In this document: positions 8,923 through 37,610 of the stretch, piece by piece | How the letters are laid out: each line of letters opens with the position of its first letter | Position numbering within the stretch: position 1 is the first letter of the stretch | DNA from: Calothrix sp. PCC 7716 | GTDB lineage: Bacteria; Cyanobacteriota; Cyanobacteriia; Cyanobacteriales; Nostocaceae | DNA: 64,000 nt | Assembly (NCBI RefSeq): GCF_019977735.1 | Contig: NZ_AP025018.1 | Coordinates: 2,976,001-3,040,000, forward strand | Direction: 5' to 3' | Notes under the pieces: generated by a model | The model's input: the letters and a program-made list of their open reading frames with translations, nothing else | Databases searched by the model: none | Told to the model about the DNA's origin: nothing | Made by a program: the position numbers and the translations under genes

Positions 8923-11379
8923 TCATAAATGTAACGTTACCAAACCGTTTATAGAAGCAACGCTATCTACATTATTGACACTGCTCGAATTATTTACCCA
9001 GTGGATAGATGGTAATAAATGCTGATTTAAAGCCATTGCTTGCAAACAGCTATTTATACTTGAAGTTGCTTGATTATATGCTGTAATCTTTTGTTCGACT
9101 ACATTTAATAAACGTTGGTTTTGAGCAATTTTCTCTGTTGCTTCTTGTTCTAAAGTTTTCTCTAAATAGCTACGCGCGCTCGCATACTGTTGTAATATTG
9201 CATAAGCTTGTTTGTCTGCTAGCGGTAGAAGTTGATTTTTTAGAGTTTGGTTAATTGTTTGACGGAAGGTTTTGCGGATGGTGCTAGATACTTTTGGCTC
9301 AAAGTCTAACTTTAATAGTTGTCGAATTTCTGGTTCTGCGTCTACCATGCTTTCGCTGTCGTAACCAAGTGAGGTTTGCTGTAATGTTTTGCGAAAGTGG
9401 TTGATAGAAAAAGTGCCTTCTTCGTAGAATTTTGGACTTTCACGTACAAAACGGTCACATTCTACGCTTGCTGCATTGATTAAAGCTAAAGTTATTTCTT
9501 TCTCAATTAATCTCAGTTCAGTCTCAATACCGCTATCGTTACCCAGTAAGCGGTACAATTGACGATAGTAATCTGATGTATTGATACGGGCGCCTAAGCG
9601 TTTGAAGTAGTTGCTAATTAATCCTAAAGTATTTTGAACTAATACGTCTTCGAGTTGATTGGCAAGATAATAAAAAGCTTCTACTAGAATAGCTAATAGC
9701 GGCGCCGTTGCATTGCGAGGGTGACTAATAGTCGCGCGTCGATATGCATCTGCTACAGAGAATGATTCTAATAACTCATCTAAACGTTGAATCATTTTTG
9801 CTTGAAGCTGTCGAAAATCTGCTTCAAACGCATTACACTCATTGTTAATTGTATTGTTTACCTCTTGAGTAAGATGAGAGCGCAGTGCATTACCAATTTC
9901 TTGTAACTCGCGGTTGAGACGCTGTAACTCATGGCTTTTCATCGCTTCTATTTCACGCGGTTGACTATATAATTCGCGCTGCACTGTTTGATAATGATTC
10001 TTAATTTGAATACAAACTGTTTCTAAATCATCAGCAAGGTTTTTGAATAGTTGTGGACGTTTTTCTTCGTTGAGGTAACGAGTGATGGCGCCTCTAAATT
10101 CTTCAATTCCACTATCTCGAATTAATTGTTCGATTAACTCGCTACCCGACTCATCTAAAATTCGCGTATAGTTTTGATTGGGTGTTTCATACCCATTTAC
10201 CGATATCCGAAACTCAGTTGGAGATAACTTGCCAGAATTTACACAGTAATTATTAAAAGCGTAAACAAATTGTGGTGTTTCTTCTTTACCATTTAATCCT
10301 TTAACACTTTCAGCAAAGACTGTATCTAAACCATACCTATCACTATGATTAGTTTGTCGAATCAAACTACCATAAAAACCTAATAAACCACTCGTTTTAT
10401 AAACCCTGGCACTTTCACGAAACTGCACATTCAATAAACTTTCGAGTCTTTGCCGCAACTGGGAATTATACCAAGTTTCATCAATGCGGTTAAAAACATA
10501 AAAAACTCTATCACGTATCCCAGGATTATTAGTGATTGTTTCTATAAGCTGAGTTTCTTCTTTCGTCATTTCACCTGCTGCCGCAGATTTTAACACACAC
10601 ACAACCGCCGAAGTATCAGGATGCTGAATTTTGGCGTAAGCTAAAGCTGCATCACGAGCAACTGGCGCATCAATTCCAGGTGTATCTATAATTACATTAC
10701 CGTCTTGCAGTAAAGGATGATAACAGTAATATTCAATTCGCTTTAATACCGCACTGTTACTACCTCTACGCGCGTAACTAGCAGCTTCCTTGAGCGTTGT
10801 AAAATTGAACTCTTCCATCGAATAGGTTGCATTATCAAGAGTATTAATACGCTGCCTGTTTGCTACATACCCTTCTAATAATAAGATTAATGCCTTTGCT
10901 TGCTTGGCTAACTCTGATTTGGTTTCGCCACCTTCTTTCTCAATAATTGCCCTGCATCCTTGCTGCAATAATTCAACAACTTCAGCTTTATTTATATTGC
11001 TAACGTTAGCAAAACCTAATTGTTGACATATTGAAATAGCTTGCTCACGAACTTCTGCTTCACTCAAAAACGTCAATACTACTCGTTCTCTATCGGGCGC
11101 CGCGTACTCAATCTTACATTCCGTTCCCGTGGCGTGTCCTTCTGCACTATATAATAATTCACGTCCAAGTAGTGCATTGATTAACATAGACTTACCTGCA
11201 CTAAAGGCGCCTGCAAATACAATTTCAAACTTTGGAGAAATTGCTTTACCCAAAGAAGTTTGGACAGGAGTAATATCGCACGCACGTAACGCTGACTCTT
11301 GATGCAAAAGCTCTAAAATCTCATCTACTTGTGCTTTGAGGTTCTGACACTGCAACGGGGACTGTGACATGGTAGACAC
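8923..11379 (-). CDS. Dynamin-like GTPase
   Basis: An 818-residue protein. G1/P-loop GAFSAGKS at residues 57-64, G3 IIDTPGID near 235, and G4-like NRID near 298 place it in the bacterial dynamin-like/large GTPase group. The remainder is mostly helical with long charged helices (for example SYLEKTLEQEATEKIAQNQR near the end), consistent with a stalk. The hydrophobic patch near residues 555-585 could act as a membrane paddle. Such proteins bind and remodel membranes; some act in phage defence or repair. It is encoded alone, opposite in strand to the second and third GTPases at 13257-18629 and 18671-20443. The start ATG gives MSTMSQ; the second ATG three codons later is an alternative. Confidence 0.85.
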   Translation of the reverse strand: MSTMSQSPLQCQNLKAQVDEILELLHQESALRACDITPVQTSLGKAISPKFEIVFAGAFSAGKSMLINALLGRELLYSAEGHATGTECKIEYAAPDRERVVLTFLSEAEVREQAISICQQLGFANVSNINKAEVVELLQQGCRAIIEKEGGETKSELAKQAKALILLLEGYVANRQRINTLDNATYSMEEFNFTTLKEAASYARRGSNSAVLKRIEYYCYHPLLQDGNVIIDTPGIDAPVARDAALAYAKIQHPDTSAVVCVLKSAAAGEMTKEETQLIETITNNPGIRDRVFYVFNRIDETWYNSQLRQRLESLLNVQFRESARVYKTSGLLGFYGSLIRQTNHSDRYGLDTVFAESVKGLNGKEETPQFVYAFNNYCVNSGKLSPTEFRISVNGYETPNQNYTRILDESGSELIEQLIRDSGIEEFRGAITRYLNEEKRPQLFKNLADDLETVCIQIKNHYQTVQRELYSQPREIEAMKSHELQRLNRELQEIGNALRSHLTQEVNNTINNECNAFEADFRQLQAKMIQRLDELLESFSVADAYRRATISHPRNATAPLLAILVEAFYYLANQLEDVLVQNTLGLISNYFKRLGARINTSDYYRQLYRLLGNDSGIETELRLIEKEITLALINAASVECDRFVRESPKFYEEGTFSINHFRKTLQQTSLGYDSESMVDAEPEIRQLLKLDFEPKVSSTIRKTFRQTINQTLKNQLLPLADKQAYAILQQYASARSYLEKTLEQEATEKIAQNQRLLNVVEQKITAYNQATSSINSCLQAMALNQHLLPSIHWVNNSSSVNNVDSVASINGLVTLHL

Positions 11380-13256: not shown

Positions 13257-13949
13257 ATGCTAGGCAAGGGTGGCTTGTGGGACGATTCAGACTATCAAAA
13301 TGCTATTTGTAAATGTCAAAAAATTGCTTATGAAGACTACAAATTTACAGATTTGGCTCTTCAAGAAACTGAGACAACACTTAAAGATTTGAGAATCGGT
13401 ATCCAAGACACATTAGAATCTATTTGGAGCAATACTAGCAGCAATTCTACAGCTAAGACAGCTAAAGAAGTCGCAAAACAGCTTGAGGCTATAAAGCAAT
13501 CTCTTGAAGAAGAAATTGTCAAAAAAATTGAGAATGTACGCGAATCTCTAGATGCCAAACAACGCGCTCTCAATTATTTCACCATTGCCTTTATGGGTAA
13601 AACAAAGGCTGGTAAAAGTACTCTCCACGCCATTATGACAGGAGAAGGCTGGGATGCAATCGGTGTAGGCAAGCAACGCACTACTCGTTCTAATCGAGTT
13701 TATGAGTGGAACAATCTGCGTATTATCGATACTCCAGGAATTGGCGCCCCTGATGGTAAAACGGATGAAGAAATTGCCCAAAGTGTTATCAGTGAGTCTG
13801 ATGTCATCTGCTATGTGGTAACAAATGACAGTATTCAAGAAAGCGAATTTAAGTTTTTACGTTTACTTAAGGAAAATGCCAAGCCACTAATTATTCTGCT
13901 AAACGTACATAAAAATTTCCGAGATTCACGGCGTGGTTCTTATGAACTA
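13257..13949 (+). pseudogene. GTPase-Hsp70 fusion gene, 5' segment (split by IS630-family element)
   Basis: 231 codons encode a helical N-terminus (~1-105) and a G domain: P-loop GKTKAGKS at 114-121, G3 IIDTPGIGAPDG near 155-166, and a degenerate G4 (LLNVHKN). The frame runs into a TAG contributed by the inserted element. Joining base 13949 to base 15657 (dropping the element and one TA) continues the frame as [13 protein letters not shown] without any stop to 18629, giving 1221 residues. The fold resembles dynamin-like/LeoA-type GTPases. As it stands only a truncated G domain can be made from this segment. ATG 13257 follows an AT-rich leader with no clear Shine-Dalgarno. Confidence 0.85.
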
Positions 13950-15654
13950 TAGCAATCCTAAATCATTTGTGAAAAAACAAAACGTTTTGGATATTTAATC
14001 TTATTTACTAATAAAACTTAAGCTCGTCACCCCCTTCGGGGGTGACGGCGCCACAAAAATTAAAAAAAAAGTATGTAAGAAACTTTAAATGTAGACTTAC
14101 TTTAAAAAATATCACTCTGTTTACGCATAACGGCACCTGCTGCCGGTAAAAATTACACGCAGTAGCTTTAGACAAGAGAATTTGAAGTTTTGGTAAACAG
14201 TTTTAAAATAAACTATAAATATAGTCTAGATTCATTATACAGCAATAGTTACGGGCTTCTAAAGTTAATGAAACTCTCAAATTTCAGTTTAATTGGAGCA
14301 ACAATTACCACCATAAGCCACACACTCTTTATGCGCGCGGACAAAACTTTTATTAATGAATGCGTGTATATCAGGAGCGTCAAACCGTGTTCAAACCTGA
14401 ATAGTTATCAAAAATCGGGTCATACATAAACATTTTTGGGAAATCAAATATCTGATGGTGAGTGACGAATTCAAACAAACTTTTAACATGAGGAAAAGAT
14501 TTACATAAATGATAAAATTTTCTCACAAAATTTTTAGCGTGGAGCCAAATGTCTTCTACAGGGTTTTGCGTTGGGTCATTTGGAGCAAACCGAATACAAG
14601 TAACTTTCCATTCATCTTCATTTAAGTCTTTATTAATCTTATCTAAATAATCTTTAAATTCTAATGAACGGTGATAACTAGCCCCGTCCCAAATTAAAGC
14701 AATACGACTTTTAGGATACTGAGAAATTAAATATTCTACAAAAGCAATAGCATTTTTTGAATTACCCTTTTCACTAGGTTTAATTATAAACTCTTGTGTA
14801 TAATAGTTCAAGGCGCCGAAGTAAGTTTGTTTCTCCTTTTCGTTTAATATTGGAATTTGAATTCTTTCTTTTTTATTTCCCCAAATGTAACCACAAATAT
14901 CTCCCCATAACAGATGACATTCATCTTCAAAAAATACTACTAGCTCTCCTGATACTATCTGGCTTTGGTGTTTTTGAAGCCAAGCTGTTATTTCTAGTTT
15001 TTTTTTGCTACTAATTCTTCATCTTTACGAGGATTCTTTTTCTGTGTTTTCTTCCAACTAATATTGGCCTGTTTAAATAAGTCGTAATAACTTTGATTTG
15101 ACTCAAAGACTACACTAAAATTATCATCCAAATACTCTTTTAATTCTTCTAAATGCCAATAATTTTTTTGTTTAAGCCAATTTATTACTATTTGCCTTTG
15201 TATTGAATCAAGATAACTTTTAGACCCTTTATATTTTAGTTTTAGTCCTGCAACTCCTTGTTCCGCAAATATATATTTCCATTTGTTTATAAAACCCACA
15301 GACACTCCTAAAATATTTCTAATCATTGAATAGTTATAGTTTTGTATTACCATCTGTACAGCTAACGCTCGTTTTAATTCTCTAGGGTCTGGGTTCGATT
15401 GAATAAACTGTATTAACTCATCCATATGTACTATCTAACACCCTGTTAGCACTGCTAAACTTCAGTATACCAACAACTGTAATTTTTCACTTCGGATGCG
15501 CGGATTGCTATATTTAAAGTTTCTTAGATACTTATTTGTTTAACTTTTATGGCGCCGTGACCCCCCTTGGGGGTCACGAGCTTAAGTTTTGTTAGTAAGT
15601 AAGATTAACCATCCAAAACATTTCGCTTTTTTCACGACTCATTTAGGATTGCTA
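13950..15654. mobile_element. IS630-family insertion element inside the GTPase-Hsp70 gene
   Basis: The 1705-bp element is flanked by TA duplications (13948-13949 and 15655-15656), as IS630/Tc1 elements target TA. Its ends are imperfect inverted repeats of about 145 bp (13950-14094 and 15508-15654) starting TAGCAATCCTAAAT. Each arm holds its own GC-rich hairpin, at 14026-14046 and 15557-15577. The transposase is on the minus strand (14380-15425). A second TATAGCAATCC-like motif at the inner edge of the right arm (15501-15512, reverse strand) hints that a smaller element, or a 145-bp MITE-like arm, was captured. Confidence 0.9.
14380..15425 (-). CDS. IS630 family transposase, -1 frameshift expected
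   Basis: Two frames together form a 348-residue transposase. The first (15425-14994) has the helix-turn-helix part (RALAVQMVIQNYNYSMIRNI...). The second carries the DDE catalytic domain: FFEDECHLLW (first D), ALIWDGASYH (second D) and NPVEDIWLHAKNF (E). They meet at a run of nine A (minus strand, 15006-14998) read as GCA-AAA-AAA-AAC before TAG; slipping back one base yields KKKLEITAWL and continues. A-run slippage is a known way for IS630 elements to make the full protein, so this may be programmed rather than decay. Confidence 0.85.
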
Positions 15655-15656
15655 TA

Positions 15657-18629
15657 GATAAATTTATTAATAACCCCGATAAACTGTTCGCTTATGATGG
15701 TTCCAGTGGTTTAGGAGGTCATATTGAGCGCATACGTCGTTATGCGCGGCAGCATTATGGCAACGACTATTTTGAGATTGTTCCTGTAATGCTATTAGCA
15801 GCACAGTTATCTTGTGAACCTCAACACCAACATCATAAACATGAGCTTTTTAACGCAAGCCGGATGCAAAACTTTTATGAAGGAATTCGATTATCTTTAA
15901 TTGAGTACGGTGCTATTAGGCGCTCACAAACCTTACTTGGTTCTACAGCGATTGATATCGAGGCGCCTTACCAGTGGATTAAAAAACAGAGTGAGAACTA
16001 TAAAATTTTAAATAATACATTAAAAAATAAGCATAAGACTATCCAAAACAAAATTAAAAAATCAATTAATGATGCTTGCGAGTCTCTAAAGTATGAGATT
16101 GAATCTGTCTTTCAAGATGCTCTAAATACTATTCCATCTTTTGCAGAAGACTATTGGAACCATTCAGAAACTAGTTTGCAACAAGGATGGGAACAAAAAT
16201 TAAAAAATATTCGGTTTGAAGAGCGTTTAAGTATAGCATATCAAGAAGTTATCACAACTTTTGGTCAGCAAGTTGAAGAATATCTTAAAGAAATAGGAAA
16301 TGAATTACAAATAATTGCCCAACTGGGTGGTATGACATTTAGCTTTAAAAAACAGGATTCAGATGATGAGCGCAATTTTTTTCGTATTGGAGGAGGAATT
16401 ATAGCAGTAGCAGGAGCAGTGATGGCATTTATCCCTCCTGTAGCTGGTGCTGCTTTCATTGTTAGTATTCTTGGAGGTGTTATTAGTTTTATTGGTGGTT
16501 TTTTTAAATCAAAAGACCAAAAGCGTAGAGAAGCTGTTGCAAATATATCGAGTTCTTTAGAGAATCAAGTCAATAACCAGAAGCAAATAACTTTATCTAA
16601 AGCTGTAGAACAAATGTATATAGTTTGTGGTGATGTTGCAAACAATATTGATAAATATTTTAATGACTTAATTGAAGGTTTAGAGGCAATTGCACAACAG
16701 CTTGATTCTGTTAAAAGTAAGCTTACAAGCCAAGTTAACAATTTTAATAATGCTTATGCAAAACGGATTATTGATTGGAGTCTTAAGTGTTATGAACCGC
16801 TGATAAGCGAGAGTGTAGATAGTACTATTGCTAGAGTAAACAGGAATTTTGGAAGGAAGATAAATATTGAAGTAAAAGTTTTTATCCAGTTACAAAGAAC
16901 TCAGGATGAAATTAATAGGGTTATACAAGAAGATATCTGTATTCAAATCTCTCAACCCACAATACCAGCAGGGACACCAAATTTCAATATTCCAACCCCT
17001 ACTTTGCCACAACCAGAGGCAGCAACAAAGCCAAAAGAAAAATTTCAGGGAGTTATAGGTATTGACCTTGGTACAACTAACTCAGTTATGGCTGTGATCA
17101 AAAATGGCTTATCAATGGTAATCCCTAATAAGGAGGGGTTTAGCACTACTCCTTCTGTAGTAGCTTATACTTACGGAAGTACTTGTCTTGTTGGACAAGC
17201 TGCAAAGCGCCAAGCTATAAAAAACCCTCTAAACACCTTTGACTCGGTGATGCGCTTTGTTGGTAAAAAATATGATGAAGTTACTGAGCAGGCTAAAGAA
17301 GTTCTCTATCAGGTTTTGCAGGATACTCAAGGTAAGATTAAGATTGACTGTCCAGTTTTGGGTAAGCAATTTACACCAGAAGAAATTTTAGCTGAGATTT
17401 TGCGTAAGTTAGCAGATGATGCCACCCAATATTTAGATGCACAAGTTATTAAAGTTGTACTTACAGTTCCAGCATACTTTGATGATATACAACGTCATGC
17501 TGTTAAAGAAGCTGGTTGTCTTGCTGGGTTGGATGTGTTACGGATTATCCCTAACCCTACAGCAGCAGCAATGGCTTATGGTCGAGACAAAGAAAATCAT
17601 GAAACTACTTTGTTCTTTGATTTAGGCGGTGGTCACTTGAGTATTTCAATTTTAGAGATTGGGGATGGAGTTTTTGAAGTTTTGTCCTATTCCGGAGATA
17701 CTCAACTTGGTGGAAATGACTTCGACCAAAAAATTATAGACTGGGTGGCTCAAGAATTTAAACACCTCGATGGTAATCCTCTTTATTATTACAAACAAGC
17801 TTGGCAGAGGTTAAGAGAAGCAGCAGAACAAGCAAAAATTGAACTTTCCAACACTACACAAACAACAATTGATTTACCCTGGATGACGAATACGACCTCT
17901 GTTCACAGAAATACGCATCTAAAGCTAACGTTAGCTCGACAAAAGTTTGAGCAGTTATGCGCTGATTTAATTAACCGCTGTCGTGTCAGTGTGGAAAATG
18001 CTCTTAAAGATGCCCACTTAGACAAAAGTGATATTGATAAAGTTATTTTAGTGGGTGGTTCTACCCGTATTCCTGCTGTTCAGAAATTCTTGCAACACTT
18101 CTTTGGTAAAGAACCTAAGCAGGGATTAAATATTGATGAATTAGTAGCTCTCGGAGCATCTGTACAAGCAGGAGTTTTAGATGGGAATGTTACAGGTATT
18201 CTCTTATTAGATGTAAATCCACTATCTCTGGGAGTCGAAACTCTTGGTGGAGTAATGACTAAAATTATTCCTCGTAACACCAGTACTCCTACTAAAAAAT
18301 CAGAAGTTTTTACGACTGCTGCTGATGGGCAAACTTATGTAGATATCCATGTGCTTCAAGGAGAAGCAGAACTAGCTAGCAATAATAAGAGTTTGGGCAT
18401 TTTACGTTTGGATGGCATTTCACTATCTCCTCGTGGAGTGCCCCAAATTGAGGTGATTTTCGAGATTGATGCAAATGGAGTACTGATTGTTATTGCTAAG
18501 GAAAAAGGCACTGGTAAAGTTCAATCTATGACTATTACTGGAGCTTTTACTTTATCTCAAGAGTACCAAAAGCATAAGGTAAACCTAGCTTCAAGTGTGC
18601 CTAATTTAATTAGTGCATTTTTATTGTAA
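15657..18629 (+). pseudogene. GTPase-Hsp70 fusion gene, 3' segment (dynamin stalk plus DnaK-like domains)
   Basis: Open from 15657 (first internal ATG 15789, giving 946 residues). In reconstructed numbering: rest of the G domain and helical stalk (~232-690) with a hydrophobic paddle-like stretch near 473-512 ([18 protein letters not shown]). Then an Hsp70 nucleotide-binding domain from ~696 ([12 protein letters not shown]; adenosine motif [13 protein letters not shown]), the linker [14 protein letters not shown], and a beta substrate-binding domain. It ends right after [11 protein letters not shown], so the alpha-helical lid is absent. The phosphate-2 motif reads [10 protein letters not shown] instead of DLGGGTFDVS. 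Whether the 946-residue part is still expressed from an internal or IS-borne start is unknown. A GTPase gene follows 41 bp downstream. Confidence 0.88.
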
Positions 18630-18670
18630 AAATTGACCTGATAGAAATTTAAATATTGAAAAAACAAACC

Positions 18671-20443
18671 ATGACAGAACACAAAGAAGAAAACAAAAAT
18701 TTTAAAGCTGCTGCGCTCGCCGCAAATTTTGAAGTTACACTTGCAAGATTTGATGATTTGCTACTTCGCGCTGATAAGCCTGAAATAGCGATTATTCGCC
18801 AAAAAATGCAAGATGAACTCGATAAACATCGGCAACAAGGATTCCTAACAGTTGCCTTTGTAGGACAGTATAGTGCTGGTAAGTCTACTATTATATCTGC
18901 TCTAACAGGACAGCGCGATATTCGTATTGGCGCCGATATTACAACCGATACAACTGCTAGTTACAATTGGAATGGTATCAAGTTGATTGATACACCAGGG
19001 TTATTTACTGACCGTAGTGACCATGATGAAATTACTTATGATGCTATTCGTCAAGCTGACCTGTTGGTTTTTTCTCTCACTTACATGCTTTTCGATGCAA
19101 TAACAGCAGAGAACTTCAAAAAGCTAGCTTACGAACTTGGCTATCGTTGGAAGATGATGCTTGTCGTCAATAAAATGTCTGATGGTGCAGGAGAAGAAGA
19201 GGAATTAATTGCTAACTACCGTCATAGTATGGCAGTAGCACTTGAGCCTTACAACCTTGATGAACTTCCACTTTGTTTTATCGATGCCAAAGATTATTGT
19301 GAGGGAGTAGACGAGAAAGATGAATTTTTAATCGAAATTAGTCGCTTCCAAACTTTGATCGACTCTCTCAACTCTTTTGTGCGGCGCCGTGGTTTCTTTA
19401 CTCGTTTCGATACACCTGTCCGAATTGCCCTAAGCTATATTGATGAAGCTCAGTTAAGCTTGACACGGGACTCTAACGAAGACTCAGCTTTTTTTGAATT
19501 ACTTAACCGTCTCTCACGTACAGTACGGCAAGAACGCGACCGTCTCCGAACTAAAGTTCGAGGGATTGCACTAAGGCTATCAGCGGCAGTTGCAAATGAG
19601 GGCACAGTTTTAAGCAGAGCAGTAGGAAGTAATGTAGATATTGAAGCTTTAGCTAAACAAGCTGAAAGCAATGTCCTTTCTCTCTGTGAAAAAGCAACAG
19701 CAGAAATGGAGAAGGCAGTTAAGGAAGCCGTAGAATCGCTTCAAGAAGAAGTTAAAAATGTGCTTAACAGTGATTTAGCTCAAGCTTTTGTTGCTCGTTT
19801 GGAAGTAAACCAAACATTTTCTGCTCGGAATGTATACCCTGGCATAAATATGGAGCGATTAAGAGAGCAGGTAGAGATGCTCGAATATATTGGTAAGAAA
19901 GTAGGAGTTGGCATAACAAAATTAGCGACAAAGACAGCAAGTAACTCTACAGGGCGAGTGTTTTTACGAACAAGGGACGTAGCTGGAAGTCCACTTCATA
20001 AAGGTATTCGTACTATTGGAAAATTTTTAGGTTTTAAATTCAAGCCTTGGCGGGCAGTAAATATCGCTAAAGGTATAGGCAACGTAGCTAAGTTTCTTGG
20101 TCCTTTGCTTTCGGTCGGTATGTTAGCAGTAGATATATACGCTAAGGAGGAAGAAGAACAACAAGACAAAAGATTGTCTGATGCAAGACGCGATATTACG
20201 AGCCAGTTTATCGCATTAGGAAAAGACCTTGAAGGTCAGACTGAAATGCAACTTAAAGAAGTTGAAGTACAAGTTTACGGGGAGATTGAAAAGCAAATTA
20301 CTGAAGCTCGTTACAATGAAGAAGAAGCTATTACCTCTTCAAACCAATGGGTAGGAGAACTTGCAGCACTCCGTAAAGAATTTGAGAAGATTATTTTTGA
20401 AATAAATAACTCAAGTGATGAAGAGTCGTATGAAATGACTTAG
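18671..20443 (+). CDS. Dynamin-like (LeoA-type) GTPase partner
   Basis: A 590-residue protein from ATG 18671; the frame also opens at TTG 18656 but ATG is preferred. G1 GQYSAGKST at 65-73, G3 LIDTPGLF near 105, G4 VVNKMSD near 166. The central and C-terminal parts are helical with a basic/hydrophobic segment (GKFLGFKFKPWRAVNIAKG, then FLGPLLSVGMLAVDIY) and an acidic, Glu-rich coiled tail. It lies 41 bp after the GTPase-Hsp70 gene on the same strand, so the two were very likely one operon. Paired dynamin-like GTPases often act as heteromers on membranes (the LeoABC case); a shared function with the Hsp70 fusion is inferred from position. Confidence 0.82.
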   Translation: MTEHKEENKNFKAAALAANFEVTLARFDDLLLRADKPEIAIIRQKMQDELDKHRQQGFLTVAFVGQYSAGKSTIISALTGQRDIRIGADITTDTTASYNWNGIKLIDTPGLFTDRSDHDEITYDAIRQADLLVFSLTYMLFDAITAENFKKLAYELGYRWKMMLVVNKMSDGAGEEEELIANYRHSMAVALEPYNLDELPLCFIDAKDYCEGVDEKDEFLIEISRFQTLIDSLNSFVRRRGFFTRFDTPVRIALSYIDEAQLSLTRDSNEDSAFFELLNRLSRTVRQERDRLRTKVRGIALRLSAAVANEGTVLSRAVGSNVDIEALAKQAESNVLSLCEKATAEMEKAVKEAVESLQEEVKNVLNSDLAQAFVARLEVNQTFSARNVYPGINMERLREQVEMLEYIGKKVGVGITKLATKTASNSTGRVFLRTRDVAGSPLHKGIRTIGKFLGFKFKPWRAVNIAKGIGNVAKFLGPLLSVGMLAVDIYAKEEEEQQDKRLSDARRDITSQFIALGKDLEGQTEMQLKEVEVQVYGEIEKQITEARYNEEEAITSSNQWVGELAALRKEFEKIIFEINNSSDEESYEMT

Positions 20444-21282: not shown

Positions 21283-23787
21283 CTATTTACTTTTTTCAAC
21301 CTCCTCCAATCGTAAAAAATGTAGCTGTCCTAAGTCATCGCTAGCAACGACTGTGACATCATCTGGTAAAACTGCACAGTAATTTATTTTCCCATCTCCT
21401 ATGAAAGCTGCAAGTTTTTCTCCTGTTCGTAAATTACATACTTTCAAAGTGCTTCGATAGAAACTAGAAATCAAGTATTTGCTATCTGAAGTAATGGCAA
21501 CAGGGTTTACCAAGTTATTGTGACTCTCAAGAGTACACAGTAGTTCTCCTGTGTGCCAATTCCATACTTTTAAAGTATCATCTTCACTATCAGAAAAGAA
21601 GGTGTTACCAGAACTAGAAATTACGTTGTTGCCATCTGGGGTAAGGACTACTGCGTATAGCTCACTGTTATAACCTTCAAGAGTATGTATTAGTTCCCCC
21701 GTTTGCCAATTCCAGACTTTGAGGGTGTAATCATTGGAACCAGAAATTACATAGTTACCATCCAGGGTAAGGACAATTGCATTAACCGAACCCCTATGAC
21801 CTTCAAGAGTACGCACTAGTTCTCCGGTTCGCCAATTCCAAACTTTAAGGGTGTTGTCATTGGAACCAGAAATCACGTAGTTGTTATCTAAGGTAATGAC
21901 AACTGCCTTTACTGAATCACGGTGTCCCTCAAGGGTACGCACTAATTCCCCTGTTTTCCAATTCCAGACTTCTAAGATGCCTTTAGGAAAACTATTAATA
22001 TCTTTATGAGTGAAGTTCTTACAAGCGGCAGAGATTACATATTCATCATCCAGAGTAAGGGCAATTGCCTTTATAAAACCATGATGACCTCTAAAAATAT
22101 GCATTACCTCGCCTGTTTGCCAATTTCTAACCTTTATGCTTTGTTCTAAAACAGAAATTAGATATTTACCGTCTTGAGTTAAAGTGAATGCATTTTCAAA
22201 CTGATCTGAACCTTTAAGGGTACGCAATGCTTCGCCCATTTTAAAATTCCAGACAAATAGAGTCCAGTTGTTTAAAATAAAAATTATGTAGTACTTACTA
22301 TTATTAGTTAGGGCAATTACTTTTTTTACACATTTACTATTACCCTCAATGACACGCGCTACTTCCTTTGTTTGGCAATTCCAGACTTTAAGGGTGTTAT
22401 CATCTGAACCAGAAATTATGTATTTGCCATCTAGTGTGAGGTTAACTGCGTTTACTGAGTCACGGTGCCCCTCAAGAGTACGCATTAATTCCCCGGTTTT
22501 CCAACTCCAGATTTTAATAGTATTATCATCGGAACCAGAAATTAAGTATTTGCCATCTGGAGTAAGGGCAACAGTGTTTACTGAACGATTATGACCTTTA
22601 AGGATACGTACTATTTTTCCAGTTTGCCAATTCCAGACTTTTAAGCTGTCATCATAAGTGTAGTCTGATAATTTTTTATAGGGACAAAAAATTACGTAGT
22701 TGCTATCAGGTGTAAAAGCAACTGCTTTTACCGACACACTATCAATATTAAGATTGAATACTAATTCTCCAGTCTGCCAATTCCATACTTTTAAGTTGTC
22801 ATCATAATTAGTAGAATCGAAAGATAATTTGTCACCCGAACCGGAAATTAGGTACTTGTCATTTGGGGTAAGGGCAACAGTATTTATAGATCGGCTATGG
22901 CCTTCAAGGGTACGCAATAGTTCCCCAGTCTGCCAATTCCAAACTTTGAGGGTGTTGTCATCGGAACCAGAAATTAGGTACTTGCCATCCGAGGTAATGG
23001 TGACTGAATTTACATGACTACTATGACCTTCAATAGTACGCACTAGTTCTCCTGTTTGCCAATTCCAAATTTGGAGGATTTTATTGGAGCCAGAAACTAG
23101 GTATTTGCCATCTGGGGTAAGGAGAAATGCTTTCACCGATTTATAATCATTTGTGATGGTACGTACAAGTTCCCCAGTCTGCCAATTCCAAACTTTAAGG
23201 GTGTTGTCATCTGAACTAGAAATTACATATTTGTCATCCAGCGTGATAACGACTGCATTTATCGAACCTTGATGACCACTCAAAGTACGTACTAAGGAAT
23301 CCCCAGGAGGTGTTAAACTTGGTGTTTGAGGAAGTAAGCAAGGAATTTTTAACTTTTGGGTTTTGGATAATAGTGCTTTAATTTCCTCATTTTGAAAAGA
23401 CAGCAAACGCCCTAATAATTGCCCTGCCAATTGCGTTTTATCTTCATTTAGGACATGCGCTGAAAGTTGCAAGGCTCCTTGAATTAATTTCAATACTCCC
23501 GCCTGCTCGCTGGAAAATGAACTCTTAGGATTTAAAGCTAAGTTGTAATCTTCTATTAGCGCTTGAATTGGAATTTCAGTATAAAAAACCTTAGCTTCTA
23601 TAAAATCGAAATCAGTTAGCCATTGATAAAATTGCTCTAAGCGATTAGCCTCAACCATGTGGCTAGGTAAATGTTTTAAGGCATAGTCTCTATCTTCAGA
23701 CACCAGGCTATCTAAATGTTTCCTGATATCCTTAACTTCTACACCCCCGCTAAACTTATCGACAATCCTCTCTCTAAGTTTCTTCAT
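21283..23787 (-). CDS. WD40 repeat protein, sensor half of a STAND-like pair
   Basis: 834 residues. About 185 N-terminal helical residues (starting MKKLRERIVDKFSGGVEVKD) lead into an array of about fifteen WD40 units ending in VWNWQTGEL-type strands; fifteen blades would suit two stacked propellers. Several units are nearly identical in sequence, showing recent internal duplication, while units 4, 5 and 10 carry insertions (KLSFDSTNYDD, KKLSDYTYDD, KNFTHKDINSFPKG). The start ATG overlaps the stop of the NTPase gene as ATGA (23784-23787), so translation is coupled. In related proteins NTPase and WD40 array are one chain; here they are separate genes. No GGCGCC site occurs in the gene, unlike its neighbours. 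Confidence 0.88.
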   Translation of the reverse strand: MKKLRERIVDKFSGGVEVKDIRKHLDSLVSEDRDYALKHLPSHMVEANRLEQFYQWLTDFDFIEAKVFYTEIPIQALIEDYNLALNPKSSFSSEQAGVLKLIQGALQLSAHVLNEDKTQLAGQLLGRLLSFQNEEIKALLSKTQKLKIPCLLPQTPSLTPPGDSLVRTLSGHQGSINAVVITLDDKYVISSSDDNTLKVWNWQTGELVRTITNDYKSVKAFLLTPDGKYLVSGSNKILQIWNWQTGELVRTIEGHSSHVNSVTITSDGKYLISGSDDNTLKVWNWQTGELLRTLEGHSRSINTVALTPNDKYLISGSGDKLSFDSTNYDDNLKVWNWQTGELVFNLNIDSVSVKAVAFTPDSNYVIFCPYKKLSDYTYDDSLKVWNWQTGKIVRILKGHNRSVNTVALTPDGKYLISGSDDNTIKIWSWKTGELMRTLEGHRDSVNAVNLTLDGKYIISGSDDNTLKVWNCQTKEVARVIEGNSKCVKKVIALTNNSKYYIIFILNNWTLFVWNFKMGEALRTLKGSDQFENAFTLTQDGKYLISVLEQSIKVRNWQTGEVMHIFRGHHGFIKAIALTLDDEYVISAACKNFTHKDINSFPKGILEVWNWKTGELVRTLEGHRDSVKAVVITLDNNYVISGSNDNTLKVWNWRTGELVRTLEGHRGSVNAIVLTLDGNYVISGSNDYTLKVWNWQTGELIHTLEGYNSELYAVVLTPDGNNVISSSGNTFFSDSEDDTLKVWNWHTGELLCTLESHNNLVNPVAITSDSKYLISSFYRSTLKVCNLRTGEKLAAFIGDGKINYCAVLPDDVTVVASDDLGQLHFLRLEEVEKSK

Positions 23788-25313
23788 AAAAAGTCGTCAC
23801 CATATGCCTGGACAATATCTTTACGGTATAAAAAATCAGAGAAACTTTGGTGATAAATGCTGTATCGGTTTTCATCCTCTACAACCGTTTCCCGTAAAAA
23901 CTGTTTCCACTCATCAAGTACCAACTGTACTTTCACTGATTTTTCATTAGATAACTCAGCAAGTAAGCGACGGGAAACTGGTTCACGCAGTTCGGCTAAA
24001 AAGTATACAATTGGCACTTTGTGCATAGGTAAGGGTTTATCGAGCATCCCCATACGGCGCCAATGGTCTTCATAATATGCCATAAGACCTTGCGGTAAAC
24101 TATCAATGCTTAAATCGCGGAATTTCCCGTTCTCTATATCCGCTAGTGCATACCGCAAATACATAAAATTATTATCACTTTTGTTTCCTAACTGGATGAC
24201 AAAATCCTCCACCGTAACTCCTTGCTCATCAATCCATTTTCGTAACTGCTTGGAATTTTGGGTACGAGTGCGAATGTAATTTTGGATGTCTTGCAAACTT
24301 TCGGCTTGGTACTGCATCAAGTCGAATCGATGGGGAGGAGAGTTAAGATTTAAAGGTAAATTTATTGGTCGTTGGGTGAGGACAAAGTAAACTCCTTTAG
24401 GCAAAGTCATGGGTAGATAAAGAATATTACTGCCTTTATGGTCAGTTTGGTCAACTTCGTCGAGTGCATCAACGGCAATAACCAGCTTTTCTCCCGATTT
24501 TAGTTTGGCGCCAGCTTCTTCGAGTAATTTACTCAAAAACTTACCATCGCGCGTTGCTTGCGGTGGTATCTCCAAGGGATAAGGTAAGTTGTAGCGAGAA
24601 ATAATTTGACTTGTGACACTCTGCAAAAATTGCTCGGCGCGGTTATTGCCTTGAGAACGAATATTAAAATAATTTATGCAGGCCGTGCGTTTTACATACT
24701 CAGCAAGAATAGCACTTTTACCCACTCCTGGGTCTGCCTCAATAATAAAGTATCCTTTTGGCTGACTGCCCAAAAAGTCCTGTATCGCTTTAAACACATA
24801 ATCGCGCCCAGTAAAGCCCTCAGTTTTTTCCTGAATCAGGGCTTGAAACTCACCACGTACTCCCACTGGTAGCGATTTTTGCAACTGTTCTTTTAACTGG
24901 TTGACTTGTTGGGCAGCTTTTTTAGCTTCGACAGCTACTAACAATCGTTCCATTGTGTCGAGCGCGCGGAAGCTGTAATCGTAGTCAAACACATCGTTAT
25001 TATGCTTAATTTCGTTGCGGATATTACGTAATTCCTCTACCCAGCTACGTTCTCGATTATCAAGCTTATTGCGTTCGTAAAAAGCTTCCCAGTGCTTTTG
25101 TAATAACTTAATTACTGCTGCGGGGTCATTCCATTTTAGATTGGCGCCGTCAAAATAGTAATGTTCCAAACTCCGTTGAGCATTCTGCAACCAGTTTGAG
25201 CCGTACTTATCCTCCATTTTACGGCTGATAAAGGGTTTAAGCGCTGGAGGAAGAATTTCTTCGAGCGCTCTATCGACCAACTGTTTATTTGATTTGCGCG
25301 CGCTCTGACTCAT
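23784..25313 (-). CDS. HEPN-NTPase (STAND/NACHT-like) protein
   Basis: 509 residues. The N-terminal ~130 residues resemble a Swt1-like HEPN domain and contain R99-N-E-I-K-H104, matching the R-x4-6-H active-site pattern of HEPN RNases. Next is an NTPase: Walker A ADPGVGKS at 193-200, Walker B KLVIAVDALDEVD near 273-285, then an arginine-rich sensor region (YFVLTQRP). The C-terminal ~150 residues are helical. It overlaps the WD40 gene by 4 nt. Together they give effector, switch and sensor, the layout of STAND conflict ATPases such as Avs or nSTAND proteins. Activity is inferred, not shown. Confidence 0.85.
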   Translation of the reverse strand: MSQSARKSNKQLVDRALEEILPPALKPFISRKMEDKYGSNWLQNAQRSLEHYYFDGANLKWNDPAAVIKLLQKHWEAFYERNKLDNRERSWVEELRNIRNEIKHNNDVFDYDYSFRALDTMERLLVAVEAKKAAQQVNQLKEQLQKSLPVGVRGEFQALIQEKTEGFTGRDYVFKAIQDFLGSQPKGYFIIEADPGVGKSAILAEYVKRTACINYFNIRSQGNNRAEQFLQSVTSQIISRYNLPYPLEIPPQATRDGKFLSKLLEEAGAKLKSGEKLVIAVDALDEVDQTDHKGSNILYLPMTLPKGVYFVLTQRPINLPLNLNSPPHRFDLMQYQAESLQDIQNYIRTRTQNSKQLRKWIDEQGVTVEDFVIQLGNKSDNNFMYLRYALADIENGKFRDLSIDSLPQGLMAYYEDHWRRMGMLDKPLPMHKVPIVYFLAELREPVSRRLLAELSNEKSVKVQLVLDEWKQFLRETVVEDENRYSIYHQSFSDFLYRKDIVQAYGDDFL

Positions 25314-33467: not shown

Positions 33468-33901
33468 AAAAATTTTCGTCCCTCTTCTTCTATGCCTGAT
33501 AGTTCCACAGCTTCTTTTAGCAAGGGGTTGGTTTTTTGTTGTTGACAATCGAATACTGAGTAATCTGGGTTGAAATTAGTTTGCTCTTTGTGTAAAAGTA
33601 ATACTACTGGTTTGACTTGAACCAGTTGAGTAAATTCTCTTATGAATTCAACCTTGTCAACTCCGAGTATTGAAGCAATTTCTTGAGCATCAGGCACCGG
33701 GGTTAAATCTCTGAAACATCTGAGAATGTATTGTTCGATAGTATCATATTTCCTTGCTGTTTTTTTGGGTAGATAAAACACCTCATTAGAGTAGGCGCCT
33801 ATAATTTCTTTGCCACTCATTGCTTCGCGGTGCTTGTCTGTAATTGTTGTTTTAATCCATGAATTTATTGGCTGGTACATATCCTTTATGATTTTTAGCA
33901 A
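33464..33901 (-). CDS. Small helix-rich gene overlapping the SF1 helicase gene
   Basis: 145 residues, not a recognised family. The middle (DTIEQYILRCFRDLTPVPDA then EIASILGVDKVEFIREFTQL) looks like a winged-helix or dimerisation domain. The start at 33901 overlaps the 3' end of the helicase gene by 50 nt, and an internal ATG at 33880 is an alternative start. It is probably the last gene of a two-gene unit with the helicase. Its role is unknown. Confidence 0.6.
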   Translation of the reverse strand: MLKIIKDMYQPINSWIKTTITDKHREAMSGKEIIGAYSNEVFYLPKKTARKYDTIEQYILRCFRDLTPVPDAQEIASILGVDKVEFIREFTQLVQVKPVVLLLHKEQTNFNPDYSVFDCQQQKTNPLLKEAVELSGIEEEGRKFF

Positions 33902-36900
33902 TGTCTAAAATATGTTTATATATTGGGCTAGCTTCGCTTTCTAATTCTACATAGTTATGTGAGGAACCAGTGATAATTAGTAAGCTTTTGGCTCTACTTA
34001 TTGCTACATTAATGCGCTCTGGAGTCTGTAAAAACTCGCTTGGTAATACTTCGGGTTTGTTCAAAACAAGACTTACAAATATTATATCCTTTTCCATGCC
34101 TTGAAATTCGTCTACTGTTCCAATGGTAAGTGTAACGTTTGGAGGTAAATCAAGTTTTTTTTGGTTATATAAGCTTTTAATTAGGTCTGTTTGAGCTTTA
34201 TATACAGAGATAATACCAATTTCTTTTTTATGTGATGCATCCTTCTTGAAGCTGTTCTTCATTTTCATGATAATTGAAAATATTAATTCTGCTTCGAGCG
34301 GGTTTTGCCGACCTGTTCCAATTTGCTGATGATGCCAATTGCTGTTATCTAATGGTAAATCAACCCACATTAAATGATGTTTGCTATTTATCAACTTGGG
34401 AATTGATATTTTATGCGCGCGTTCGCTGTCTTGCTTTGAGTAACCAAGAATTAGTTTATTTCCATAAAACGGGTTAACTCCTGACATAATTTGTGAGTGC
34501 ATACGGTATTGATTGATTAGCATTATGGTTCGAGAAGCTTGAATCTTTTCTAAATACTCATATCGCTCTTTAAACAAAGATTTAGTTAATTGTTTTTGAA
34601 GTTCAACAGCATCTACTCCTAAAGTTTTAGCTGCTTCAATAAAATAAGCTTCGTCTTTAAATATAGGTGGCAGTTGTTTCCAATCTCCAGCTAAAACTAT
34701 TTTTTTACCTACTAAGCAAGGAATAACCATTTCGGTTATTGTTGCTTTAGATACTTCGTCAATAATAGTAACATCAAATTCCGAAAAGCGGTTTAAAAAA
34801 GTTTTCTGATTGCCTGCTTGTATACAAGTGGCGCCTACAACATTAGCATGTTTTAAAAAAAGTTCATATGACTCATCACTAATTTCTATATCACCGCTGC
34901 GAATTTGAGCAATCCAATCTTCTTTGATTTGAATTTTAATTTCTAGCCTTTTAACTTCCGTTTCACCACCAATTGACGATAACCAAGGTTCTCTTTGTAA
35001 TTTTAATAATTCTAAATCAGGAATAGGTTTATTACAGAACTCTGGCACAGAGTTTTGAGTTCGTAATTCTTCCCATAGACGATGACCTAATTGATGTTTC
35101 TCATCTTTACATTTTATCTGAGACATTATGCTATCATATTCTTCGTTAAAAGAGTTGGCTTTATCTAAAGCTGATTGCTCACTCAGCGCATATTCATTCT
35201 GCGAAGATAAGTTGAACTCAGATACAGTCAGAAGTCCATTTTGAAAGGGTTGAATAATTTTATTTTCCGCGATGGGAATAAACTTTTCTATAGAAGCAGC
35301 CATAGAAACAACATTTTTGTTAACTTTGAGCAATTCTTCAATTTCAAGACTGTTTTCAACTTCTATCAGGTCTATAGTGTCAACAAAAGGCTCAAATACT
35401 TCATTAAGTGCTGTTTTTAAATAGTTTGCCTCACCAAAACACAACTGAGCATCTTCTAATAACTTTTTATAGCGACGTTGTTCACCTTGAAGGTTTATTT
35501 CTTCTTGTTCGTACTGACTAGTAAGCTCTATGACTTTAGCTTCTGCAATTTGTAATTCTGAATTATACTCGTCGTGTATTTTTATTGCAAGGTCAGAGGT
35601 TTTTGCATGGTAAAAGTGGCGTTGAGCGTTATTAAATATATTTTCGAGAGAGCATTTTAATTGCTCTTTGGCATGGTATAATGTAGGTTTGTAAAGGCGC
35701 CCAACAAAGATTAGTGTCGATAGCTTTTCGAGATTTATCAATTTGTCGTATATATATTTATGTTGATTTATTTTGTTTGGTAATAAATTTATTTCCGCTT
35801 CCTCCCAAGAACGGATTAACTGAACAAAATTTATTTGGCGCCTCAAAATTTGAAAAGCATCAATTATAATAGTTATAGTTATTTTTGATTTATTTCGGTT
35901 TCTAAATTTACTTAATCTCTCACATATACTAGTGTAGGTAGAACTCAAAGAAACTACTTCTGATGACTCATCTGTAATTCCATGATTAAGTATATTTTTG
36001 AGATTTTGCACACTATTTTGCAGCATATTTAGCTCGAAACGTATTTTTTTAATCTTGTCTTCCATCTCTTGTGTAAGTTTTAGAGAATTCTGTCGCTCTA
36101 AAATATTCAGTTTAATATCTCGATATAATTTAGCAAAATCTTTTTTAAAATTGTGAATATAGCCACCTGGTTTAATATCTAAAATTAGTTGTTTAATCTC
36201 AGTTGCTATTTCCAATAAGTCCGATTCAGTTTGGTTTAAGTTAGGAGCAACTTTATAAACTTTGAATTCAGTTAAGAATTGCAGTAATTCAGAATTAGAC
36301 TCATAAGTAAATTGATGAGTTTGAAATTCTTGAATAAATAATTTTATACATTTTTCAATATTTATAGTCTTTAAATATCTATCTTTAAATTCAAGTGCTG
36401 CTTCTTGATATTTGTCAGCTATACCTTTTTTATTTTCAGCTATAGCTAGTAATTGAATACTTTGTTGATGCCAACTAACCCATCGAATAACATCTTCCCA
36501 GCAATTAATAAATAAATCAACTTGCTCAAATTTCTTTTTCATCTCCTGCAAATTTTTGTCACAATCTTCTGCTACAGACTTTAACCACGTTATGACAGCG
36601 TTTTTTTCAAAATATTCTAGAACGTCTTCACTAATCTTTGTAATTTCACCTAACCTAACAGCAAGTATACTTTGGTGCTTTGGTAGTTTTGAAAATATAT
36701 TGTCCACTGCTGAGTTAAACTGGCAAGATAGAAGAACTTTTTGACCCTGAAGAGGTATTATAGAACAAAGCACAACAATAACTGTTGATTTTCCTGTTGC
36801 TGGTGGTCCTTGTAATACAAAAAAGTCAGGTGACGCTAGAATCATTCTTATCGCTAGTTTCTGATGCTCGTTTAGCTTGTGTATATTTAGGTGCTTATAT

Positions 36901-37610
36901 AAGGGTATTGGCGCCAAAGGTAATGTTTCAGGAAGTTTTAGCTCTTTATTCTGACCAAAAAGAAATACATCCAGAGCAGGTTGACAACTACGTTTTTCTA
37001 TCAAACGTTTAATGGCATCTTTTTGTACACGAATTGGATGCAAGTCACCAACTAGAGAGTTCGTAATGATTCCGCTGACAGAAGTGAGTTCTAAATATTC
37101 TTTACTCAATGAGACTTTTAGAGTATGTGTTTGTGAATTCAGTGATTCAAATTTGGCAGATACTCGCTCAAAATCTAAAAAATCTATTTCTTGCTTTAGT
37201 TCTATAAGACATCTTTCTGACGTTCGTAATTCCGATTGTTCTATGATTTTCGGTGGTAGATGTCCAATTACGGCGCCAATATTATTTGTTAATAAGAAAA
37301 AACTATCGCCTTGATAGTGCTGCTGATAAAATTCTTTGAAAGAGAGGTTATGAGAAACTACAGATATAAGCTTATACTTTTTTGGTGGCTTAATAGTATA
37401 TAAGTTTATATTATCGCCTTGACGACACTGCTTAATAGTTTTTAATAGTTCCGATGAAATAACTGAAGCAAGAGTTAAATATATGCACTTTGAAGTCTTG
37501 TCAATTCGGTAAGAAACAAAAGGGACTTGAAATTGCTTTTGTTCAATGAATCGTTCACATACATCCAGGTAACTTACCCAGAATTTTTGTAGATTCGCTT
37601 TTATAGTCAT
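33852..37610 (-). CDS. Large SF1 (UPF1-like) helicase with long coiled-coil insertion
   Basis: 1252 residues. Helicase motif I GPPATGKST lies near residue 267, Walker B/motif II VTIIDEVSKA near 947, and later motifs follow: GDWKQLPPIF, INQYRMHSQIM, TVDEFQGMEKDIIFVSL, INVAISRAKSLLIITG. Between motifs I and II an unusual ~650-residue block is dominated by charged heptads (for example KIRFELNMLQNSVQNLKNIL). An N-terminal ~240-residue domain precedes. UPF1-like SF1 helicases unwind DNA or RNA; many in bacteria are found near defence genes. The gene is followed by a small overlapping gene (33464-33901). Only a few GGCGCC sites fall in it (34829 to 37272). Confidence 0.85.
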   Translation of the reverse strand: MTIKANLQKFWVSYLDVCERFIEQKQFQVPFVSYRIDKTSKCIYLTLASVISSELLKTIKQCRQGDNINLYTIKPPKKYKLISVVSHNLSFKEFYQQHYQGDSFFLLTNNIGAVIGHLPPKIIEQSELRTSERCLIELKQEIDFLDFERVSAKFESLNSQTHTLKVSLSKEYLELTSVSGIITNSLVGDLHPIRVQKDAIKRLIEKRSCQPALDVFLFGQNKELKLPETLPLAPIPLYKHLNIHKLNEHQKLAIRMILASPDFFVLQGPPATGKSTVIVVLCSIIPLQGQKVLLSCQFNSAVDNIFSKLPKHQSILAVRLGEITKISEDVLEYFEKNAVITWLKSVAEDCDKNLQEMKKKFEQVDLFINCWEDVIRWVSWHQQSIQLLAIAENKKGIADKYQEAALEFKDRYLKTINIEKCIKLFIQEFQTHQFTYESNSELLQFLTEFKVYKVAPNLNQTESDLLEIATEIKQLILDIKPGGYIHNFKKDFAKLYRDIKLNILERQNSLKLTQEMEDKIKKIRFELNMLQNSVQNLKNILNHGITDESSEVVSLSSTYTSICERLSKFRNRNKSKITITIIIDAFQILRRQINFVQLIRSWEEAEINLLPNKINQHKYIYDKLINLEKLSTLIFVGRLYKPTLYHAKEQLKCSLENIFNNAQRHFYHAKTSDLAIKIHDEYNSELQIAEAKVIELTSQYEQEEINLQGEQRRYKKLLEDAQLCFGEANYLKTALNEVFEPFVDTIDLIEVENSLEIEELLKVNKNVVSMAASIEKFIPIAENKIIQPFQNGLLTVSEFNLSSQNEYALSEQSALDKANSFNEEYDSIMSQIKCKDEKHQLGHRLWEELRTQNSVPEFCNKPIPDLELLKLQREPWLSSIGGETEVKRLEIKIQIKEDWIAQIRSGDIEISDESYELFLKHANVVGATCIQAGNQKTFLNRFSEFDVTIIDEVSKATITEMVIPCLVGKKIVLAGDWKQLPPIFKDEAYFIEAAKTLGVDAVELQKQLTKSLFKERYEYLEKIQASRTIMLINQYRMHSQIMSGVNPFYGNKLILGYSKQDSERAHKISIPKLINSKHHLMWVDLPLDNSNWHHQQIGTGRQNPLEAELIFSIIMKMKNSFKKDASHKKEIGIISVYKAQTDLIKSLYNQKKLDLPPNVTLTIGTVDEFQGMEKDIIFVSLVLNKPEVLPSEFLQTPERINVAISRAKSLLIITGSSHNYVELESEASPIYKHILDIAKNHKGYVPANKFMD

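Follow-up and report, generated by a model that had tools for sequence, protein, structure and literature searches.

The window, i.e., the whole stretch of 64,000 nucleotides of Calothrix sp. PCC 7716 that was analysed (from a genome of 12.4 Mb), contains a gene for a dynamin-like protein, LeoBC, which carries a divergent Hsp70 at its C-terminus and is followed, 26 bases downstream on the same strand, by a gene for a second dynamin-like protein, LeoA. The LeoBC gene is not intact in this genome, being split by an IS630 element (Table 1).

Table 1. Features of the LeoBC–LeoA locus, in window coordinates.
Feature	Coordinates	Strand	Description and profile match
LeoBC first piece	13257..13949	+	N-terminal helices and GTPase domain (GKTKAGKS, DTPG); PADLOC LeoBC 23-193 of 601, E 3.6e-56
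IS630 element	13950..15654	-	1705 bp; transposase frames 14994-15425 and 14380-14811
LeoBC second piece	15657..16976	+	Remaining GTPase domain, helical stalk with hydrophobic tip, small C-terminal domain; PADLOC LeoBC 194-594 of 601, E 2.8e-55
Pseudo-Hsp70	17046..18629	+	Nucleotide-binding domain, linker, beta substrate-binding domain, no lid; Pfam HSP70 1-507 of 599, E 8.1e-194
LeoA	18656..20443	+	PADLOC LeoA 3-555 of 559, E 7.2e-119

The 5′ open reading frame of LeoBC spans 13257–13952 and encodes 231 amino acids, and its stop codon, TAG, is formed by the first bases of the IS630 element. The 3′ frame, covering the rest of LeoBC and the Hsp70 part, is open from 15657 to 18629 (990 amino acids). 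For LeoA, the listed start is a TTG at 18656, with an in-frame ATG at 18671. An earlier reading of the DNA, made from the sequence only, had joined 13257–13949 and 15657–18629 into one gene of 1221 residues. These coordinates and this length hold on the ORF reading, and the join is correct because the PADLOC LeoBC profile PDLC03841 continues over the break from its position 193 to 194, the same-genus relative Calothrix sp. FI2-JRJ7 reads GPYEL-EKFINN without a break (the window equivalents are GSYEL before the element and DKFINN after it), and the LeoBC remnant of Dulcicalothrix desertica PCC 7102 reads straight across the codon that holds the element in the window. Thus, the two segments are almost certainly one gene cut by IS630, with the architecture given in Table 1. 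Two unrelated neighbouring genes were also considered at this position and are ruled out by the profile continuity and the unbroken ortholog.

The interrupting element belongs to the IS630 family, as the sequence-only reading had proposed, and shows a family transposase, terminal inverted repeats (31 nt at 90%, plus 97 nt at 85% further inward) and a TA duplication (13948–13949 and 15655–15656). Its two ORFs match transposase NF033545, each under the whole-protein cut-off because the transposase gene is read in two frames that join at an A9 run near 15006. The genome has another copy (C1:9142055–9143756), which interrupts a different, unrelated ORF and is identical over 1702/1702 bases compared, showing that the jump into LeoBC is recent, in line with the earlier proposal. 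That proposal went further and had the element excise cleanly and restore the gene, which would make it a reversible switch. The recent mobility indicated by the identical copy and the TA on both flanks are consistent with such a switch. However, the related ISY100 cuts in a staggered manner, which predicts that excision would leave bases behind (PMC2170065) and argues against the claimed clean excision; moreover, the second copy sits in an unrelated ORF, and neither FI2-JRJ7 nor D. desertica has an IS at this LeoBC codon. The switch is therefore extremely improbable. The removed length of 1707 bp, or 569 codons, which had been offered as support, is discarded as uninformative, because removal of any insertion restores the frame that it broke and a multiple of three is a 1-in-3 event.

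Both LeoA and LeoBC are matched nearly end to end by the Eleos profiles of PADLOC (PDLC03839 and PDLC03841). Eleos is the name of this LeoA + LeoBC defence system, and as judged by profile and gene order the pair is an Eleos-type dynamin pair, LeoBC then LeoA. The sequence-only reading had recognised a dynamin-like GTPase followed by the nucleotide-binding and beta substrate-binding domains of an Hsp70 without the lid, an order borne out by the PADLOC and Pfam matches; it had identified neither the LeoBC of an Eleos-type pair with an adjoining LeoA nor the loss of the catalytic residues of the Hsp70 part. The FI2-JRJ7 ortholog matches positions 6–593 of the 601 of the LeoBC profile (E 1.3e-115) and is 91% identical to the window LeoBC in the first piece (FI2-JRJ7 residues 1–231) and 86% identical in the second. 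It was modelled with AlphaFold2 from a 25-row alignment (mean pLDDT 77.2, pTM 0.74; residues 458–513 below 50). In a Foldseek search with this model, bacterial dynamins ranked at the top, with BDLP (2j69, E 5.1e-11) followed by LeoA (4aur, E 5.1e-10), and the SynDLP structure Slr0869 (7zw6) came only at rank 12. The TM-scores were low (0.2–0.4), perhaps due to differing hinge angles between the model and the structures, and the predicted dynamin fold is called on the Foldseek E-values together with the LeoBC profile.

The C-terminal part is an Hsp70 by its Pfam profile, with the folds of the nucleotide-binding domain (NBD) and the beta substrate-binding domain (SBD). It ends at about residue 510 of E. 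coli DnaK, i.e., without the α-helical lid. In E. coli numbering, it carries the substitutions K70M, N170P, E171N, T199H, F200L and D201S, which affect the catalytic residues K70, E171, T199 and D201. All six residues are kept in E. coli DnaK and in 39/39 canonical cyanobacterial DnaKs, comprising 21/21 from seven genus genomes and 18/18 further ones from the order (19 loci were taken, and one without a usable frame was left out). Among the invariant columns, 41/165 are changed in the NBD and 12/62 in the SBD. With both site sets picked by hand, the changes are enriched at catalytic sites (4/4 changed, p 0.003) and depleted at binding sites (0/15, p 0.011). The retained residues include the nucleotide contacts, the linker and the peptide groove, namely D8, T11, T12, D194, G196–G198, E267, K270, S274, G342 and R345 as well as the linker LLLD, R167, E217 and V436; the J-domain contacts R167, E217, L391, L392 and D393 are likewise retained.

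Judging from these substitutions, the ATPase of the fused Hsp70 is very probably dead. In DnaK, the side chains of K70 and T11 are reported to sense the γ-phosphate, and their non-polar replacement disables allostery, while T199A greatly lowers the ATPase activity and leaves allostery intact (PMC12406271). In that study a response to ATP is also reported for the variants E171D and E171Q, and the loss of E171 alone is therefore not decisive. K70M may prevent the domain from adopting the ATP-bound form to which DnaJ docks, despite the kept J-domain contacts.

The fused Hsp70 is 62–65% identical to DnaK2s, whereas the DnaK2s sampled from the order are 87–95% identical to the organism's own DnaK2. 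In a tree it forms a single branch with a length of 1.07 that joins within the DnaK2s; this placement is weakly supported and calls for caution about long-branch effects. Among the matches listed across 291 order genomes, the best other Hsp70 reaches 65% identity, and these matches are stand-alone frames of up to 733 residues. These data fit best a fast-evolving offshoot of the cell's own DnaK2. Compared with this DnaK2 over 505 codons, the fused Hsp70 differs at 147, 88 and 314 sites in the first, second and third codon positions, respectively, and contains 0 stops, as against 16.5 expected from a neutral simulation to the same divergence (minimum 7 in 300). The dN/dS of LeoBC is 0.28 and 0.33 against FI2-JRJ7 and 0.26 against D. 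desertica (111 codons); the LeoA remnant of D. desertica gives 0.45 (185 codons), and the neighbouring SynDLP gene gives 0.09–0.10. Based on the lack of stops, the codon-position differences and the dN/dS values, the parts of the locus were under constraint over a large share of their past, and this constraint was looser on LeoBC and LeoA than on SynDLP. The constraint on the Hsp70 part may predate the fusion, and the loss of catalysis may have come before or after it, a single full pseudo-Hsp70 being known.

The spread of LeoBC was followed by its stalk region in overlapping genome sets, with weak matches counted and, in the order and phylum searches, at most four candidates scored per genome; matches were obtained in 21/100 relatives (E 0.001), 66/388 genomes of the order and 19/386 of the phylum, all 19 of the latter falling within the order. 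No stalk match was present in four other genomes of the genus. One order genome (G234) gave a 1314-residue frame at 21% identity. A species-wide scan (84,980 species, each represented by one genome) returned 47 LeoBC loci; it used two short peptide patterns, which divergent LeoBCs may escape. Phage records and, by a pattern-based search, IMG/VR yielded no LeoBC relative, and 1 of 72,556 plasmid records contained one.

An Hsp70 part was detected at none of the 88 LeoBC loci searched (L029–L116, from overlapping sets; tblastn, E 1e-3). The stub in FI2-JRJ7 is below the reach of tblastn and was read directly. An uninterrupted relative has the same domain order as far as its sequence extends: the FI2-JRJ7 gene is unbroken at the join, and only ~20 Hsp70 residues are kept there. 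Thus, the LeoBC–Hsp70 fusion is real and rare, occurring in the window and, as a stub, in FI2-JRJ7, and at no other LeoBC locus examined. The accessory modules of LeoBC differ among relatives. In the 47 scan loci, a TerB-like domain is found N-terminally in 43 and a YbjN domain C-terminally in 2; LeoA accompanies LeoBC in 41, several of the remainder being cut by contig ends. A single protein combines LeoBC and LeoA in some relatives, and in one of these it has TPRs at the N-terminus. A tree built from 25 LeoBCs places the Hsp70 form as the sister of both YbjN forms (100/100), and no convincing TerB or YbjN remnant was found near the window gene (the best match, E 0.064, lay elsewhere). The pseudo-Hsp70 was probably gained C-terminally by LeoBC within one small Calothrix/Dulcicalothrix clade.

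Upstream in the window, the SynDLP gene (8923–11379) matches Slr0869 (7zw6, E 0), and in FI2-JRJ7 and D. desertica the locus is likewise bordered by ExoD, SynDLP and Uma2. SynDLP is found in at least 143 of 195 order genomes; it was also considered as the source of the Hsp70 link and rejected, as none of 30 SynDLP loci (L155–L184, the window's included, with ~1.5 kb flanks) had an Hsp70 match. This particular locus is present in three genomes, and each of the copies looks damaged in its own way, by the IS630 element in the window. In FI2-JRJ7, the gene ends after GTTNS of the Hsp70 at a repeat with 12 copies (97–100%), several of them at contig ends, and neither the remaining Hsp70 nor a LeoA of ~90% identity was found in this genome; the copy was possibly truncated at the multi-copy repeat or cut by MAG assembly. 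In D. desertica, a deletion fuses LeoBC to LeoA, so that its LeoBC may or may not once have carried an Hsp70. Because the locus is broken in each genome holding it, its use within this genus is doubtful.

We tentatively favour a defence-type dynamin pair in which the dead, DnaK2-derived module senses infection, either as a client trap or as an integrated decoy. LeoA and LeoBC would assemble on the membrane upon infection, with the accessory module of LeoBC setting when this occurs. The pseudo-Hsp70 would be that sensing module, keeping the peptide groove and many surface contacts of DnaK and yet probably being unable to cycle, and such a sensor role is plausible, short of probable. It could trap phage or misfolded clients or serve as a decoy for phage factors that bind DnaK, and binding to it would set the dynamin part free or bring it into clusters; the TerB-like, YbjN and TPR modules may act likewise elsewhere. 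The more specific version, in which phage proteins that seize DnaK bind the ATPase-less, lidless copy of the host chaperone on LeoBC, a copy that evolved fast after its fusion, and thereby trigger the dynamin pair, is rather unlikely when taken by itself. Under it, the C-terminus of LeoBC would accept interchangeable sensors of a chaperone-like kind, either YbjN or Hsp70. As precedents, dead copies of cell enzymes have been suggested to act as decoys in prokaryotic conflict systems of other kinds (PMC7159879), DynA of Bacillus subtilis is reported to delay phage lysis (PMC8844932), and phage defence by bNACHT25 needs DnaJ and is abolished by mutations that break DnaJ–DnaK cooperation (PMC12169576). 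No demonstration of Eleos activity for a cyanobacterial LeoBC was found in the literature consulted.

The pair could instead remodel membranes for the cell's own needs, e.g., vesicle formation or upkeep of thylakoids and envelope, in which case the Hsp70 part would hold cargo or unfolded proteins at the membrane and there would be no role in defence. Such a role would agree with the suggestion that DnaK-like proteins beside cyanobacterial dynamins take part in protein sorting during membrane remodelling (PMC5827413) and with the reported influence of E. coli LeoA and LeoB on vesicle release (PMC4159319). However, the patchy spread (66/388 order genomes) and the repeated damage to the locus are unlike housekeeping, LeoBC evolves faster than its conserved SynDLP neighbour (dN/dS 0.28–0.33 vs. 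0.09), and a HEPN-STAND gene and an MkoA-like helicase share the window, making this explanation somewhat unlikely.

It is unlikely, too, that the Hsp70 part is baggage, i.e., an accidental dnaK fusion that was inactivated and was drifting before the IS arrived. The single very long branch and the 41 changed invariant NBD columns would suit drift, and selection after the fusion is not visible without a second full copy. In contrast, the 505-codon frame without a stop, the bias of its differences to third positions and the retained nucleotide contacts, linker and groove argue for constraint, although some of this evidence could stem from constraint that acted before the fusion. Hsp70s are known to disassemble coats, and an active Hsp70 in cis might dismantle the dynamin assembly as Hsc70 does clathrin coats. 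The kept linker and J-domain contacts would serve such a role. However, K70, E171, T199 and D201 are lost and the lid is absent, and loss of K70 is reported to disable allostery (PMC12406271), so that an active chaperone is very improbable.

The preferred reading, a dead chaperone module on a defence-type dynamin, would bring two threads together on one chain, i.e., the part that dynamin-like proteins play in phage defence and the reading of the DnaJ/DnaK cycle by immune proteins. A dead copy of a host chaperone on such a dynamin is what an integrated decoy would be expected to look like, and therefore a single soluble domain would be enough to ask whether decoys of host targets occur in the immune proteins of bacteria. 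The repeated damage to the locus within one genus bears on the cost of such systems. No description of a single-chain dynamin–Hsp70 with a dead ATPase was found in the open-licence literature.

Several known systems share parts of this arrangement. Eleos, which has been placed among dynamin-like defence systems (PMC11811056), shares the profiles (PDLC03839 and PDLC03841), the gene order and the strand; in contrast, the window LeoBC has a C-terminal pseudo-Hsp70, lacks the TerB-like N-terminus and is encoded by a broken gene. LeoA, LeoB and LeoC of enterotoxigenic E. coli are likewise a dynamin pair, and their LeoA structure (4aur) ranks second among the Foldseek matches of the LeoBC model, but LeoB and LeoC are split genes there, and the text mentions neither Hsp70 nor DnaK (PMC4159319). 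LeoA by itself was reported neither to bind nor to hydrolyse nucleotide, and the authors proposed its activation with LeoBC (PMC4159319). With bNACHT25, the common trait is the reliance of an immune protein on the DnaJ/DnaK chaperone cycle; it is, however, a NACHT protein rather than a dynamin and uses the host DnaJ, with no Hsp70 of its own mentioned in the text available (PMC12169576). GTPase-centred conflict systems combine a GTPase and an HSP70 in one system, as here, whereas their HSP70 is a separate gene and their GTPases are of other families, the accessible text being without the word dynamin (PMC7159879). A dynamin with a DnaJ-like C-terminus has already been published (PMC6104087). 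The 'chaperone clade' of cyanobacterial dynamins also links a dynamin with a DnaK-domain protein; there, as described in the part of the paper available, the DnaK is a separate downstream gene, unlike the single chain of the window, and neither the dynamins concerned nor the activity of the DnaK is specified (PMC5827413).

The LeoBCs closest to that of the window, at about 57% identity, are those of four loci (L031, L046, L071 and L072), and each carries a TerB-like domain at the N-terminus and a YbjN domain at the C-terminus. LeoBC and LeoA are found as a single chain at loci L041 (1398 residues) and L042 (1711 residues), the latter with a TPR array at its N-terminus, and likewise on one chain at L056, in a frame of 1417. 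A deletion remnant is present in D. desertica PCC 7102 (L043), where the middle of LeoBC is joined to the last third of LeoA in a frame that remains open over 342 residues.

The second copy of the IS630 element, elsewhere in the same genome, is identical to the window element at 1702 of 1702 bases. This copy also cuts an ORF, which is open for 499 codons on each side, up to the locus end, and whose right part resembles, by its motif, the start of a subtilase.

Features of the window and the second IS630 copy (L145)
Feature	Position	Strand
SynDLP ortholog (cyanobacterial dynamin; Slr0869, 7zw6)	8923-11379	-
Large repeat protein gene (repeats WD40-like by sequence)	21283-23787	-
HEPN_Swt1 + STAND-type NTPase gene	23784-25313	-
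Superfamily-1-type helicase, AAA_11/AAA_12	33852-37610	-
Protein kinase domain + GUN4-like domain, one chain	39061-40434	+
IS630 element, second copy	G000:C1:9142055-9143756	

SynDLP has a match in 143 of 195 genomes of the order, with a dN/dS of 0.09-0.10 within the genus. The repeat protein and HEPN_Swt1/STAND-type NTPase genes overlap (21283-25313, minus strand) and likely constitute a conflict system. The helicase has PADLOC matches to MkoA (E 2.8e-89); the system of MkoA goes by the name Mokosh.
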